The notes below the pieces were generated by a model. That model was given only the letters and a program-made list of their open reading frames with translations. It was not told where the DNA came from and did no database searches. From Gammaproteobacteria bacterium (GTDB lineage: Bacteria > Pseudomonadota > Gammaproteobacteria > Steroidobacterales > Steroidobacteraceae), in NCBI GenBank assembly GCA_020846815.1, contig JADLDF010000129.1, forward strand, positions 1-11,842: a stretch of 11,842 nucleotides of DNA, in the 5' to 3' direction. The translations under genes were made by a program, and so were the position numbers. The first letter of the stretch is position 1. Every line of letters starts with the position of its first letter. Below are positions 2,857 to 7,607 of the stretch, piece after piece.

Positions 2857-3714
2857 ATGCGCATCGCATTCCTCGGGCTCCTGCTCGCCAATCTGGTTGC
2901 TTTCGGCTGGTCGCAGTGGCTCGCACCCAGCCCGGCATCCTCCCCACCTGCCGCCAGGCCGTCGGGTCCCGGCCCGGCCCGCATCCTGCTGGCGAACGAG
3001 CGGCCGGCAGCTTCGCCCGCGGTCGTGACGACACCCGACGTGACTGACATCACCGCCACGACTACGGCGTCAGCCACGACCAAGGTTGCTGCTGCGACCC
3101 ACGTCGTGGCGGCCAGCGTCGCTGCGGCCGGCTCCGCCGGCGTCGCGGGTACTGCGCCAGCCAGTCTGTCTGCCGCGCCGACCGCCGCAGGTCTCGCGAT
3201 TGCGGTCCTGGCGACGCCGTCGGCGGCTGTCGCCCGCCGCTGCGCTTCGATGGGGCCGTTCAGCGACGCCGAGGGGCTCGCGCAGGCCACGGCGATGCTG
3301 CAGCAGGACGGCTATGCGCCGCGGCAGCGCGCTGCGAACGGCGCCGTGGTCGACAGCTACATGGTCGTGATCCGCCGGCTCCGGAACGAGGCCGACCAGG
3401 CGCGCGTCGTCGCCCGCCTGAATCGCGGCGGGCTCGACGACGCCTTCGCGATCCCGAAGCTCGACGACGGCCACGCGGTTTCGGTCGGCCTGTTCAGCCA
3501 GGCACGACGCGCCGAGCGCCGCGCGCTGGCCGTCGGCAAGATGGGCTTCAAGGCCGAGATCGTCGAGCGCACGCGACCGGACAAGGTCTACTGGCTCGAC
3601 TTCGATCTCAAGACGCCGGCCGCGGGCAGCGCCGACCCGTTCGCGGCCGGCAGTGCCGATGCCGCGCAGAAGTGGCAGGTCGTGGCGTGTCCGGCCCCCG
3701 CAGCCCTCGGCTAG
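2857..3714 (+). CDS. SPOR-domain envelope protein
   Basis: The 285-residue protein starts with a short N-terminal hydrophobic anchor (about 1-18, MRIAFLGLLLANLVAFGW). A long low-complexity Ala/Thr/Pro/Ser linker (about 22-125) follows, then a folded C-terminal part with SPOR-like features (about 127-240). That part includes RRCASMGPF, a strand VVDSYMVVI (164-172), and VSVGLFSQARRAERRA (208-223) as the second half of the repeat. SPOR domains bind denuded glycan strands at the division septum, so a periplasmic, membrane-tethered role in envelope or division is inferred. A SPOR gene after coaX and before a tRNA gene is a recurring gammaproteobacterial arrangement. The C-terminus has a short internal repeat (AAGSADPFAAGSADAA). 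No Shine-Dalgarno precedes the ATG. Confidence 0.8.
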   Translation: MRIAFLGLLLANLVAFGWSQWLAPSPASSPPAARPSGPGPARILLANERPAASPAVVTTPDVTDITATTTASATTKVAAATHVVAASVAAAGSAGVAGTAPASLSAAPTAAGLAIAVLATPSAAVARRCASMGPFSDAEGLAQATAMLQQDGYAPRQRAANGAVVDSYMVVIRRLRNEADQARVVARLNRGGLDDAFAIPKLDDGHAVSVGLFSQARRAERRALAVGKMGFKAEIVERTRPDKVYWLDFDLKTPAAGSADPFAAGSADAAQKWQVVACPAPAALG

Positions 3715-4300: not shown

Positions 4301-5305
4301 TTAATCAGTGTCGGACTGTGGCAGCGCGAGATCCACGGCCACCGGGCAATGATCCGTCAACTTGTGACGCAGCGCCTCGCGCGGCTCGAAGGTGATGCGA
4401 CGGAACGAGCCCGGCACGCGTCTTGCCGCGAGCGTGCGCGACAGCAGGATGTGGTCGATGTAGCCGTTGAAGTTCTGGCCGGGGTGGCAGTTCACGAAGC
4501 GCCCGCTCTCGGCGGCGTTCACGAGATCCGCCTCGGGCGGGTCGCCGTCGTCGATCTCGGCCCAGAGGCTGCGCGGCTCGCCGGCCGCGTTGCGGGCCGG
4601 CCCCGGATCGCGCAGCAGCTCGCGGTTGAAGTCGCCGAGCACCGCGAACGGACGCCCGGCCGCGGCCTGGGCGTCGACCCAGCCCTCGAGGGCCGGCAGC
4701 TGACGCGCCAGGACCGCGCACTGCTCGCGGGGTGAATCGAGCGTGCGGCGGCCGCAGCCCGACTTGAGGTGCACGGCCAGCAGGCGGATCTCGCGCGCCG
4801 TGCCCGGGAAGAGCACGAGCTCGGCGCCGCGGCGCACCCGGCCCTGCAGTGCGAGCCCGGTGAGATCCGGGCCGCAGCGAAAGGGCAGGCCTTCGCGCAC
4901 GGCGAAACCGAGGTTCTGCACGCCCGGGGCGCCGGTGAAGCAGAAGCGGTGGCGCGGGAACACGCGGCGCGCGGCCGCGGGCCCGTCGACCTCCTGCATC
5001 GCGACGACGTCGGCATCGAGCTCGCGCGCGTAGCGGGCGAGGGCCTCGAAGTCCGCCGTGGAGCGCTCGAGCTTCGCGGCGACGTCGCAGGGAATGCTGC
5101 GCCGGCGGCTGCCGGGCGACGCGCCCTGGGGCACGCAGCTGCGCTTCAGTGCGAGGAAGCTCTCGGGGGCGACCAGCCATTCGAGGTTCCAGGTGGCGAG
5201 GCGCAGCGTGGCCGGGGCGCGCACGCCGGATTCCGCACCAGGGCCCGGGGATGCGTGGCAGCTCGCGGCGAGCAGGGCGGCCAGACAGGCGAAAGCCAGT
5301 TTCAT
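4301..5305 (-). CDS. Exported endonuclease/exonuclease/phosphatase-family enzyme
   Basis: The 334-residue protein has the conserved residues of the EEP (DNase I/exonuclease III-like) fold: ATWNLEW with N40, MQEVDG with E105 (metal ligand), VHLKSGC with H179, GDFNREL with D225 and N227, GYIDHI with D284, and TDHCPVAVDL with D318 and H319. The N-terminus (about 1-15) is a signal sequence. LLAASC could be a lipobox with C16 lipidated, although Ala at -3 is less usual; cleavage by signal peptidase I is the alternative. Many further cysteines (57, 73, 122, 144, 184, 196, 273, 320) suit an oxidising periplasm. Substrate is unknown: extracellular DNA, phospholipid head groups and phosphodiesters are all handled by this superfamily. 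No Shine-Dalgarno precedes the ATG. Confidence 0.85.
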   Translation of the reverse strand: MKLAFACLAALLAASCHASPGPGAESGVRAPATLRLATWNLEWLVAPESFLALKRSCVPQGASPGSRRRSIPCDVAAKLERSTADFEALARYARELDADVVAMQEVDGPAAARRVFPRHRFCFTGAPGVQNLGFAVREGLPFRCGPDLTGLALQGRVRRGAELVLFPGTAREIRLLAVHLKSGCGRRTLDSPREQCAVLARQLPALEGWVDAQAAAGRPFAVLGDFNRELLRDPGPARNAAGEPRSLWAEIDDGDPPEADLVNAAESGRFVNCHPGQNFNGYIDHILLSRTLAARRVPGSFRRITFEPREALRHKLTDHCPVAVDLALPQSDTD

Positions 5306-5311
5306 GGCGGC

Positions 5312-5340
5312 ATTGTCCCGGTCGTTTCACGGGCCGGCAA
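5312..5340 (-). promoter_or_regulatory. Weak candidate promoter of the EEP-family gene
   Basis: On the minus strand TTGCCG (5340-5335) and GACAAT (5317-5312) are spaced by 17 bases, each matching four of six consensus positions. The -10 ends six bases before the ATG, so the mRNA would be leaderless. This agrees with the absence of a ribosome site. In DNA this GC-rich such boxes can occur by chance. Confidence 0.25.
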
Positions 5341-5395
5341 TCGCCTCATGCCGCGCGTACGCCCGGATTCTCCCGCGTGATTAAATAGGTTGATC

Positions 5396-5444
5396 AAATG
5401 GATCGGATTTATTTTCTCGGAGAGAAAATAAATCCGATCCATTT
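5396..5444. repeat. Perfect 23-bp inverted repeat with 3-nt loop in the divergent intergenic region
   Basis: The left arm 5396-5418 (begins AAATGGATCGGATTT) is the exact reverse complement of the right arm 5422-5444 (ends AAATCCGATCCATTT), with loop GGA at 5419-5421. I checked all 23 pairs. GC content of each arm is about 30% (7 of 23), against roughly 70% in the surroundings. A smaller palindrome, TTGATCAA, touches its left edge at 5390-5397. The element ends 21 bases before the racemase-like ATG, leaving the ribosome site GAGGAAA outside the stem. It may be an operator for the divergent genes, an mRNA leader hairpin, or the trace of a small mobile palindrome. Confidence 0.95.
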
Positions 5445-5465
5445 CAAATCCACGAGGAAACGCTC

Positions 5466-6215
5466 ATGGGCCTGGATGTGCTGGGTTATCGCCGCCTGTT
5501 CGGCGTGCTGGGGCCGTCGACCAATACGACCGTGCAGCCCGACTACGACGACATGCGGCCGCCGGGCGTCACCAACCACTACAGCCGCATCTACACGCCG
5601 AATGCCAAGGCGATCAGCAACGAGACCTTCTACGCCGGCACGATGAAGATCTCCGAGGGCGTGCTCGACGCCGTGCGCAGCGTCATGACCTGCGAGCCGG
5701 ACTATCTCGTCATGGGCATGTCGGCGATCACCTTCTACGGCGGCGCCAGGGGCGCCGACGAGTTCGTCGACAAGGTCGAGAAGGAAGCGGGCGTCAGGGT
5801 GTCGGTGGGCTCGCATTCCTGCGCTGCGGCGCTCGAGGCCTATGGCGGGGTCAAGCGCATCGCCTTCCTGTCGCCGTACTACCCCGTGGCCAACGCCGAG
5901 GTGCGTCGTTACTTCCAGGACATGGGCTTCGAGACCGTGCGCGACGTGCCCATGCAGGCGCCGTCGTGGACCGGCATCGCGCAGATCACCGAGGCGCGCT
6001 GCCGCGAGGTGCTGCGCCAGCTCGAGGGCCCGGACGTCGACGCGATCGTGCAGGTCGGCACGAACCTCTCGATGGTGCGCCTTGCCGCCGCCGCCGAGCT
6101 CTGGCTCGGCAAGCCGGTGATCGCGATCAACACCGCGACCTACTGGCACGCGCTGCGCGCCAACGGCATCCAGGACAGGATCCCGGGCTTCGGCCGGCTG
6201 CTCGCCGAGCTCTGA
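5466..6215 (+). CDS. Maleate isomerase/arylmalonate decarboxylase-like protein (Asp/Glu racemase superfamily) lacking both catalytic cysteines
   Basis: The 249-residue protein has the length and layout of the maleate cis-trans isomerase/arylmalonate decarboxylase branch. It has the N-terminal GVLGPSTNTTVQPDYD (13-28), MGMSAITFYGG (83-93) where the first catalytic Cys normally lies, SPYYP (136-140), QVGTNLSM (196-203) where the second lies, and GKPVIAINTATYW (215-227). By eye alignment both cysteine positions are glycine (G84, G198). Arylmalonate decarboxylase also has Gly at the first site but keeps the second Cys. Remaining cysteines (76, 119, 179) are elsewhere. The reaction is therefore unknown; a lyase or isomerase acting on small carboxylic acids is only an inference. 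The ATG at 5466 follows a good ribosome site (GAGGAAA, 5454-5460). The gene stands alone behind the palindrome at 5396-5444. Confidence 0.8.
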   Translation: MGLDVLGYRRLFGVLGPSTNTTVQPDYDDMRPPGVTNHYSRIYTPNAKAISNETFYAGTMKISEGVLDAVRSVMTCEPDYLVMGMSAITFYGGARGADEFVDKVEKEAGVRVSVGSHSCAAALEAYGGVKRIAFLSPYYPVANAEVRRYFQDMGFETVRDVPMQAPSWTGIAQITEARCREVLRQLEGPDVDAIVQVGTNLSMVRLAAAAELWLGKPVIAINTATYWHALRANGIQDRIPGFGRLLAEL

Positions 6216-6280: not shown

Positions 6281-6388
6281 CGCGGTTGCCGATGGCCTCG
6301 CTCAGCGATTCCAGCTCGAGGTCGCCGAGCGGGTCGCGCACGCGTGCCTGACGCGCGGTTGCCGGCGGCCTTGCTCAGCGGTTCCAGC
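6281..6388. repeat. 35-bp direct repeat copying the 3' end of the pilin gene
   Basis: Bases 6281-6315 and 6354-6388 both read CGCGGTTGCCG/A..GGCCT.GCTCAGCG.TTCCAGC and match at 31 of 35 positions, with starts 73 bases apart. The right copy spans the last codons and stop of the PilE-type gene on the minus strand; the left copy is in the intergenic gap. The four differences do not fall at third codon positions, so this is not a conserved coding remnant. Confidence 0.6.
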
Positions 6389-6839
6389 AGTGCTGCGCGT
6401 CCCGGGTCGCTCCGCCGGCGACGCCACGCTCGTTGCGGTTGTCGAGCGTCAGCGTCCGGCATTCCGCGTCCTCGGTCTGGCCGGCCTGCGGCACGGCGTG
6501 CAGCACGAAGCTGCCGGCCGTCAGCGTCGGCGCCTGGATCTGGTAGCGGCCCTCGGCCAGCGTCCGCGGCAGCTCCTGCGCCGCCGCGCAATCCTCGTCG
6601 TCGTAGGCGTTGAAGCGCGTGAAGCAGCGCTCCAGCGCGCCGGCGGTCGCGAGCAGCGCGCTTTTCGCCTCGGTGCGCTGTGCGCGGATCACGTAAGAGC
6701 GATAGCTCGGTATCGCGATCGCGGCGAGGATGCCGACCACGACCATCGCGATCAGCAGCTCCATCAGCGTCACGCCGCGCTGATGCGCGCGCACGCGCGG
6801 CGCCGGCGGCGCGGGTTCCGCCACTGCGATATGCGTCAT
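6375..6839 (-). CDS. pilE: Type IV pilin, PilE-like
   Basis: The 154-residue protein has a class III (prepilin) signal. After the 22-residue leader ending in QRG, the mature protein begins VTLMELLIAMVVVGILAA, with Glu at +5 and the usual hydrophobic alpha-1 helix; cleavage and methylation by PilD are expected. The head domain has two cysteine pairs by position, C72/C84 and C127/C151, and ends in HCWNR, resembling PilE-type minor pilins. The leader is long for this class; an in-frame GTG at codon 16 would shorten it to seven residues. The start is 25 bases after the FimT-like stop, so the two form an operon. A GAGG lies four bases before the ATG. A pseudopilin of a type II secretion system is a less likely alternative. 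Confidence 0.85.
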   Translation of the reverse strand: MTHIAVAEPAPPAPRVRAHQRGVTLMELLIAMVVVGILAAIAIPSYRSYVIRAQRTEAKSALLATAGALERCFTRFNAYDDEDCAAAQELPRTLAEGRYQIQAPTLTAGSFVLHAVPQAGQTEDAECRTLTLDNRNERGVAGGATRDAQHCWNR

Positions 6840-6864
6840 CGTGCCTCGGCAGGCGTCGTCGACA

Positions 6865-7419
6865 TCAGGGACAGTCTATCCGGTCGTGACGGATGGAACC
6901 GAGGCCGTTGAGCTGGATCTGGCGCGCGCCCGGCTCGCCGCTGCGGCAGGACGTCGAATAGACGAGGTAGGACCGGGTGGCAGCGGTGGGTCGCACCAGG
7001 CCGGTCGCGGTGAACGTGGCCCACGCGGCGCTCGCACCAGTGCCGGTGCCGGTGATCGCGACGCTGGCGTCGCCGGGGCCGTGCCAGAGGCGCAGGATCT
7101 CCTCGCCATTCTGGCGCGTGCCGTCGCCATCGGCATCGAGGAACGCGAACCAGCCGTTCGGCCAGGCGGAGGCATCGGCGCAGGTGGTGGCGCTCGAGCT
7201 GGGGCAGACGGTGACCAGGGCGGCGCGCCGGATCGCCTCGCTGCGACCGTAGTTGAGGGCGGTGACCAGGTCGTTCTGGGTGGCGATCACGCGAGTGCTG
7301 CGGCCGTATTCCTGGAACGACGGCACGGCGAGGCCGACCAGGATGCCCGCGATGGCGATGCCGACCATGAGCTCGAACAGCGTGAAGCCGGATGCCGCGG
7401 GTTTCGTGAGCCCTCTCAT
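6865..7419 (-). CDS. fimT: GspH/FimT-family minor pseudopilin
   Basis: From the ATG at 7419 the protein has 184 residues: an 11-residue leader MRGLTKPAASG and mature FTLFELMVGIAIAGILVGLAVP with Glu at +5, the prepilin peptidase signature. After the N-terminal helix comes a GspH/FimT-type head with DLVTALNYGRSEAIRR (50-65), a Cys pair 72/80, WPNGWFAFLDADGDG (86-100), Cys 158/183, and the typical closing GSIRHDRIDCP. The reading frame continues upstream to 7587, but the short leader makes 7419 the natural start; no clear ribosome site is visible. It is the first gene of a two-gene minus-strand unit with pilE. In other gammaproteobacteria fimT usually heads a longer minor-pilin cluster. Confidence 0.85.
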   Translation of the reverse strand: MRGLTKPAASGFTLFELMVGIAIAGILVGLAVPSFQEYGRSTRVIATQNDLVTALNYGRSEAIRRAALVTVCPSSSATTCADASAWPNGWFAFLDADGDGTRQNGEEILRLWHGPGDASVAITGTGTGASAAWATFTATGLVRPTAATRSYLVYSTSCRSGEPGARQIQLNGLGSIRHDRIDCP

Positions 7420-7530
7420 GGGCGGCGATGATGCGGGCGGTGCCGCGATCGTTGCGCAGCGCCCGACGAGCGGGGCCGGCGGGCCGATCACCGGCACTCT
7501 CACGTGATGCACTTCTCGGCGCCGCTGCGA

Positions 7531-7536
7531 CATAAT
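7531..7536 (+). promoter_or_regulatory. Candidate -10 box (CATAAT) of the methyltransferase-LemA-M48 operon
   Basis: CATAAT matches TATAAT at five of six positions and lies 71 bases before the methyltransferase ATG, in the 188-bp gap between divergent genes. A -35 element 17 bases upstream would be TGCACT, a poor match. The leader that follows contains no obvious riboswitch or hairpin. Confidence 0.3.
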
Positions 7537-7607
7537 CGACCGGCTCAGGAGTGGCGGGCCGGTCCGGCCCGGTGGCCGAAGTCTCAAGGTGGTCGAGGAG
7601 TCTCCCC

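Follow-up and report, generated by a model that had tools for sequence, protein, structure and literature searches.

What is a perfect, AT-rich palindrome doing between two divergent genes in GC-rich gammaproteobacterial DNA? The initial annotation of this locus, made from the letters alone, had offered three answers: an operator, a leader hairpin controlling the downstream gene, or a MITE-like or foldback remnant. We compared the locus with its orthologs and its arms with the genomes of relatives, and conclude that the palindrome is very probably a diverged, non-autonomous REP-like mobile repeat, a putative inverted pair of TIR units of the type that bracket TIRYT-type Y1 (HUH) genes. The features of the window (the whole stretch of 11,842 nt that was analyzed) on which the argument turns are as follows.

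4301–5305, minus strand: divergent endonuclease/exonuclease/phosphatase-family gene (PF03372, 45.9 bits, cut-off 24.5)
5378–5391, plus strand: putative promoter region, the site of the orthologs' extended −10-like TGnTAnnnT, which reads TGATTAAATAGGTT in the window
5390–5397, no strand: short palindrome TTGATCAA, overlapping the left arm by 2 nt, without demonstrated role
5396–5444, no strand: perfect palindrome of 49 nt, defined by arm pairing, an apparent inverted pair of TIR-like units
5396–5416, plus strand: left arm, TIR-like unit AAATGGATCGGATTTATTTTC, matching the relatives' unit at all but 2 of 21 positions
5419–5421, no strand: 3-nt loop, GGA
5424–5444, minus strand: right arm, TIR-like unit, exact inverted copy of the left arm
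5454–5459, plus strand: ribosome site GAGGAA, outside the palindrome stem
5466–6215, plus strand: Amdase-family gene (arylmalonate-decarboxylase-like, earlier called racemase-like; PF17645, 54.3 bits, cut-off 25.9)

The palindrome itself was as previously described. Its 23-nt arms (5396–5418 and 5422–5444) are 100% complementary with 3 nt between them, and its 49 nt have a GC content of 33%, while 50-nt windows outside it range over 60–84% upstream and 62–70% downstream. It lies in the 160-nt gap between the endonuclease/phosphatase-like gene and the Amdase-family gene, and the ribosome site follows on its 3' side, ahead of the ATG at 5466. The second palindrome reported to adjoin it is indeed present but shares two bases with the left arm. 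As RNA, a 100-nt stretch containing the palindrome had a predicted fold of −42.5 kcal/mol (z = −7.17), which none of 200 shuffles equaled. In 1.2 Mb comprising the window and the fetched loci, perfect inverted repeats (loop of at most 12 nt) exceeded this arm length only once, with 30-nt arms in locus L065. The palindrome is thus far beyond chance. Its 19-nt inner arm had no copy in the 11.8-kb window besides the two arms at up to 3 mismatches, and neither GTAG nor GTGG is present in 5390–5450. Most of the element lies between copies of a direct repeat, TCAAAT; we claim no target duplication, because this repeat overlaps the arm.

Two other readings of the hairpin were discarded. A search for intrinsic terminators (a GC-rich stem followed by a T run) in 5250–5500 found none, which rules out a terminator. 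As for a known RNA family, Rfam 15 gave nine matches with E ≤ 1 in 5200–5700, all below gathering scores, and the seven that cover the palindrome are all miRNA models. The Amdase-family protein did not reach the NCBIfam cut-off for either arylmalonate decarboxylase or EutA. Further downstream, a pair of minor-pilin-like genes (ComP/N_methyl and GspH/N_methyl; 6375–7587, minus strand) sits between the Amdase-like gene and a methyltransferase gene in the window. The match to the methyltransferase region begins at most about 40 nt past the Amdase match in nine relatives (L001–L003, L005–L008, L010 and L011).

The comparison of orthologous gaps that the initial annotation had proposed was then carried out. 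Scanning species genomes with the Amdase-like protein yielded 80 loci, the best of 454 relatives, and further loci came from two sets of relatives (148 and 196 genomes). The divergent gene pair was present in 27 fetched loci, of which 12 were repeats of the same places and were removed, leaving 15 distinct loci. All 15 lack the palindrome. Within the last 160 nt before the gene, none of these orthologs has a perfect inverted repeat longer than 6 bp (loop of at most 12 nt), against 23 bp in the window; likewise, no inverted repeat of at least 10 bp was found in the 300 nt upstream of the gene in the 29 loci checked among the best 80 of 454. The nearest ortholog is locus L084 in genome G019, with 92% identity in the Amdase-like protein (residues 1–161), 80% in the endonuclease and 83% at the DNA level over 2 kb. 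Its intergenic gap is 117 nt, 43 nt shorter than the 160 nt of the window, and both flanks of the palindrome align closely.

The same gaps provide indications of a promoter. An extended −10-like TGnTAnnnT precedes the start codon in 13 of the 15 orthologs, from which we infer a promoter that adjoins the window palindrome or lies shortly upstream of it. The window is without this motif, and scanning 5250–5500 for the sigma-70 consensus gave no match. The window's TGATTAAATAGGTT resembles TGATAGGTT of L108 with extra bases inside; a change of the promoter may have accompanied the palindrome's arrival. In L002, L003 and L101, the TGCTAGCCT motif starts only 16 nt before the ATG of the Amdase-like gene, suggesting a leaderless or nearly leaderless mRNA there.

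Where, then, did the arms come from? An initial search used 19 nt of the arm and covered 13 relatives, G019 not among them; its 3 matches at 3 mismatches against 1 for the control are at chance level, a point against a mobile repeat. The arm search in relatives that had been recommended earlier gave a different picture with the 23-nt arm: at up to 3 mismatches it matched six places in 4 of 396 relatives of G019, and its reversed control matched none. Five of the six matches read AAAGGGGTC[AG]GAT[TC]TATTTTCT; the sixth (in G115), without family context, looks like chance. From the relatives' unit, AAAGGGG[AT]C[AG]GATTTATTTTC, the window arm differs at 2 of 21 positions, and both departures are identical in both arms. 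None of 200,000 shuffles of the arm came within 3 mismatches of this unit, and the best of 1,289 AT-rich 23-mers from the fetched loci had 7.

In ten genomes, copies of GGGGTCRGATTTATTTTC with up to 2 mismatches numbered about 142 in G019, 27 in G096, 9 in G036 and 3 in G121, and none were found in the remaining six; the reversed control gave a single match, in G121. A single contig of more than 4.6 Mb carries all the G036 unit and Y1 matches. Many dispersed genomic copies had been named beforehand as the mark of a mobile repeat; the genome in which the approximately 142 copies were counted is that of the nearest relative. Weighing against this reading, the exact variant of the window, at up to 1 mismatch, occurs in none of 369 genomes of the class and is not among the 23-nt arm matches.

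Genes for Y1 transposases (Y1_Tnp, PF01797) were found in four of the ten genomes: one each in G019 and G096, six in G036 and two in G055. The Y1 frame of G019 (L198, minus strand) runs from a likely start near 2991 to a stop at 2248; units at 2238 and 2264 overlap the 3' end of the gene, and units at 3037 and 3108 lie beyond its 5' end. Similarly, the G096 gene (L183:1177–1869) is flanked by a unit at 1167, which overlaps the gene end, and another at 1958, and one of the six G036 genes (L180:1183–1875) lies between units at 1102 and 1955. The units at the gene ends are the variants dispersed in the respective genomes: GGTGTCAGGTTTATTTT(C/T) in G096, with the C form in 21 of 27 units, and GGGGACAGATCTATTTT(C/T) in G036, with it in all nine. 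The pairing of units and transposases is incomplete, which again speaks against a mobile repeat: G121 has units and no Y1 gene that we found, and G055 has Y1 genes and no such units. The Y1 proteins of G019, G096 and G036 score above the PF01797 cut-off and contain, by eye, HVH together with YVELNP, YVDLNP and YVDQNP, respectively, in agreement with the class 2 TnpA-Y1 signature of a HUH motif plus Y---NP given in PMC6006769. Against the NCBIfam model for REP-associated tyrosine transposases (NF047646, cut-off 80) they reach 65.8, 72.4 and 73.3 bits. No C-terminal HTH or DnaA_C-like domain, a mark of TIRYT subclass 2.1, was found in the three proteins, nor any second Pfam domain at E ≤ 1.

A mobile repeat of this kind agrees with a published class of REP-like repeats, TIRtron/TIRYT. 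In the account of Di Nocera et al. (2013; PMC3733652), TIRtrons are RAYT-like TIRYT genes that have long terminal inverted repeats on either side, distinct in origin from GTAG REPs; the motif GGGGWSAS is common to some of these TIRs, not all, and some form moderately abundant dispersed families, as dimers or clusters. Quentin et al. (2018; PMC6006769) place 20 of 26 TIRYT in subclass 2.1. The short inverted units of the relatives likewise bracket a Y1 gene and are dispersed, many of them in dimers or clusters, and their heads GGGGACAG and GGGGTCAG fit GGGGWSAS, whereas GGGGACGG and GGTGTCAG do not. As in an inverted dimer, the window has two facing units with 100% complementarity. However, its head, TGGATCGG in both arms, departs from GGGGWSAS, which counts against the assignment, and the Y1 bracketing is that of the relatives G019, G096 and G036. 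REPs and REPIN–RAYT systems resemble it in being intergenic, hairpin-folding inverted pairs tied to Y1 transposases, mostly outside divergent gaps (PMC3733652). They differ in that the window element is without the GTAG tag, a single unit is not a hairpin alone, and the relatives' Y1 proteins lie below the NCBIfam REP-associated cut-off. Elsewhere, six 15-nt pieces of the unit had a sole match in the open literature, on a chloroplast protein as judged by its listing, and PMC2817692 holds nothing on TIRYT.

The gene context is a further point against a mobile repeat. REPs are reported mainly between convergent and same-direction genes (PMC3733652), and gene directions around 23 G019 stretches, a rough estimate from third-position GC rather than annotation, were convergent in 15 and the same in 8. 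None was divergent, unlike the gap that holds the window element.

The family in G019 has a striking architecture. Forty stretches were picked by hand, leaning to inverted pairs, and 39 went into a palindrome scan. It gave 24 palindromes with arms of at least 18 nt; one, in L223, is an unrelated GC-rich hairpin beside the repeat and was dropped, leaving 23 palindromes at the repeat with arms of 18–72 nt. Of their arm positions, 1078 of 1084 pair, 17 of the 23 are perfect, and nine contain two units per arm around an inner stem. Long, near-perfect nested palindromes with arms up to 72 nt are found among L199–L230 (for example L210:288–436 and L216:283–426). In L223, symmetry extends over about 25 nt of the flanks outside two facing units but not to the inner part, as though unrelated DNA had come to fill an outer palindrome. 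These palindromes differ from TIRtrons as described in the accounts compared, where such long, partly nested and often perfect forms do not figure.

Facing units, counted without selection for pairing, occur in 29 of the 39 stretches, as 38 pairs, and are identical in 31 of these, compared with 0.21 expected if units were drawn independently. It thus seems that the two arms are copied jointly or one from the other. Five of the seven differing pairs are far apart (at least 29 nt) and outside any palindrome found; the ten stretches without a facing pair have single or same-direction units, and three are at contig ends. Arm identity averaged 0.995 within 20 of the 23 palindromes. The units agreed in 27 of 27 cases, and across the same 20 palindromes 320 of 331 left-arm differences between copies were mirrored in the right arm, counts that are partly built in because the palindromes were selected for pairing, the latter also taking all pairs of copies, which are not independent. 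Outside G019, G096 has two distinct perfect palindromes (36- and 37-nt arms) in six loci, G036 has one (24-nt arms) in five and G121 none in three, in a scan of the middle of each locus that can miss units near contig ends. The window element, with the same two departures in both arms, shares this habit of matching arms. The paired changes of the G019 family show that arms change together; they are not evidence that the Amdase-like gene needs a hairpin.

Taken together, the MITE-like remnant emerges as the best supported of the earlier options, with 15 of 15 orthologous sites empty and some 142 units in G019, where they flank a Y1 gene. We propose that, once the window and G019 lineages had parted, a copy or a precursor of it entered the leader of the Amdase-like gene, mobilized by a Y1 transposase that would act from elsewhere in the genome. 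The arms would stay identical by being copied as a unit or from each other; this could come about by template switching, by foldback copying tied to the transposase, or by the spread of whole copies once paired changes had arisen. A bolder version of the model, which we regard as rather doubtful, is that the repeats are self-perfecting palindromes: a HUH nick at a unit would free a 3' end that folds back and copies the inverted partner, as in rolling-hairpin replication. Arms would then be rewritten from each other while copies diverge, new palindromes would nest in old ones, and the window element would represent a lineage in which the recognition head has shifted, simultaneously in the two arms, from GGGG[AT]C to TGGATC, perhaps along with a transposase of its own.

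For the host gene, the element would have a physical consequence. If transcription begins within the left arm or shortly ahead of it, a hairpin of 21–23 bp would form near the 5' end of the leader. The mRNA of the Amdase-like gene probably carries such a hairpin; since it leaves the ribosome site free, any effect it may have would be exerted through the stability of the message, or through cleavage by RNase III, rather than through access of ribosomes. The element is most likely a passenger, for which a benefit to the host is not needed.

The first rival to this mobile repeat is that the hairpin was made in place, when a replication template switch copied the native leader in reverse complement with no mobile repeat involved. 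Template switches are reported to create perfect stems and paired changes in one event (PMC8794818), and such an event could keep arms identical, including the two departures from the relatives' unit that both arms of the window share. By itself, however, it offers no account of a unit shared across a genome and placed around transposase genes: the match of the arm to the dispersed G019 unit at transposase-gene ends would be left unexplained, and the leader of the ortholog has no such AT-rich 23-mer to copy. We therefore consider an origin in place improbable.

Placed between divergent genes and beside a presumed promoter, the palindrome would suit as a symmetric operator, bound by a dimeric regulator of both genes or of the Amdase-like gene. 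Against it, the arm is part of a repeat family that is dispersed in the nearest relative, and the orthologous divergent pairs have no inverted repeat longer than 6 bp at this place. The gene-specific operator suggested by the initial annotation lacks support, since the palindrome is missing from all 15 loci that share this gene pair, and we judge it very unlikely.

Slightly less credible still is a leader hairpin under selection to control the Amdase-like gene. The stable fold just before a free ribosome site, with a presumed promoter just upstream, is what such a hairpin would look like. Conservation at the locus cannot be demonstrated, however, because the palindrome is present in this one sequence only, and the match to the repeat family explains it without selection. 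Of the earlier leader-hairpin proposal, the hairpin itself stands as a likely physical consequence; the compensatory changes that had been named as its sign have no counterpart at this locus, where no ortholog carries the palindrome. The palindrome could have been taken over for a function after its arrival.

Foldbacks are a known type of assembly artefact, but that explanation is as hard to credit as the last one, as both flanks continue into conserved genes in conserved order, the same type of palindrome recurs within contigs of G019 and G036, and a match to the repeat of a relative is not what one would expect of an artefact.

We also sought a plasmid or phage origin and rejected it: a 90-nt query gave seven weak matches in 72,556 plasmid records and 19 in 50,697 phage records, none covering more than 80% of it. 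In viral contigs, the full arm and the central palindrome pattern had no matches, and two shorter unit patterns matched eight and two contigs. These ten are read as chance, being single units without an inverted partner in DNA of 32–42% GC; no Y1 gene was found in the five of the ten matched records that were searched.

What appeared to be a private operator is thus most likely a mobile repeat, and the close ortholog with an empty site provides a presence/absence pair for the arrival of such an element in a 5' leader. G019 has a sizeable set of palindromes, long, nested and almost perfect, around one Y1 transposase gene. TIRtrons are little studied, and this set makes it testable how HUH enzymes make palindromes, keep them perfect and move them.
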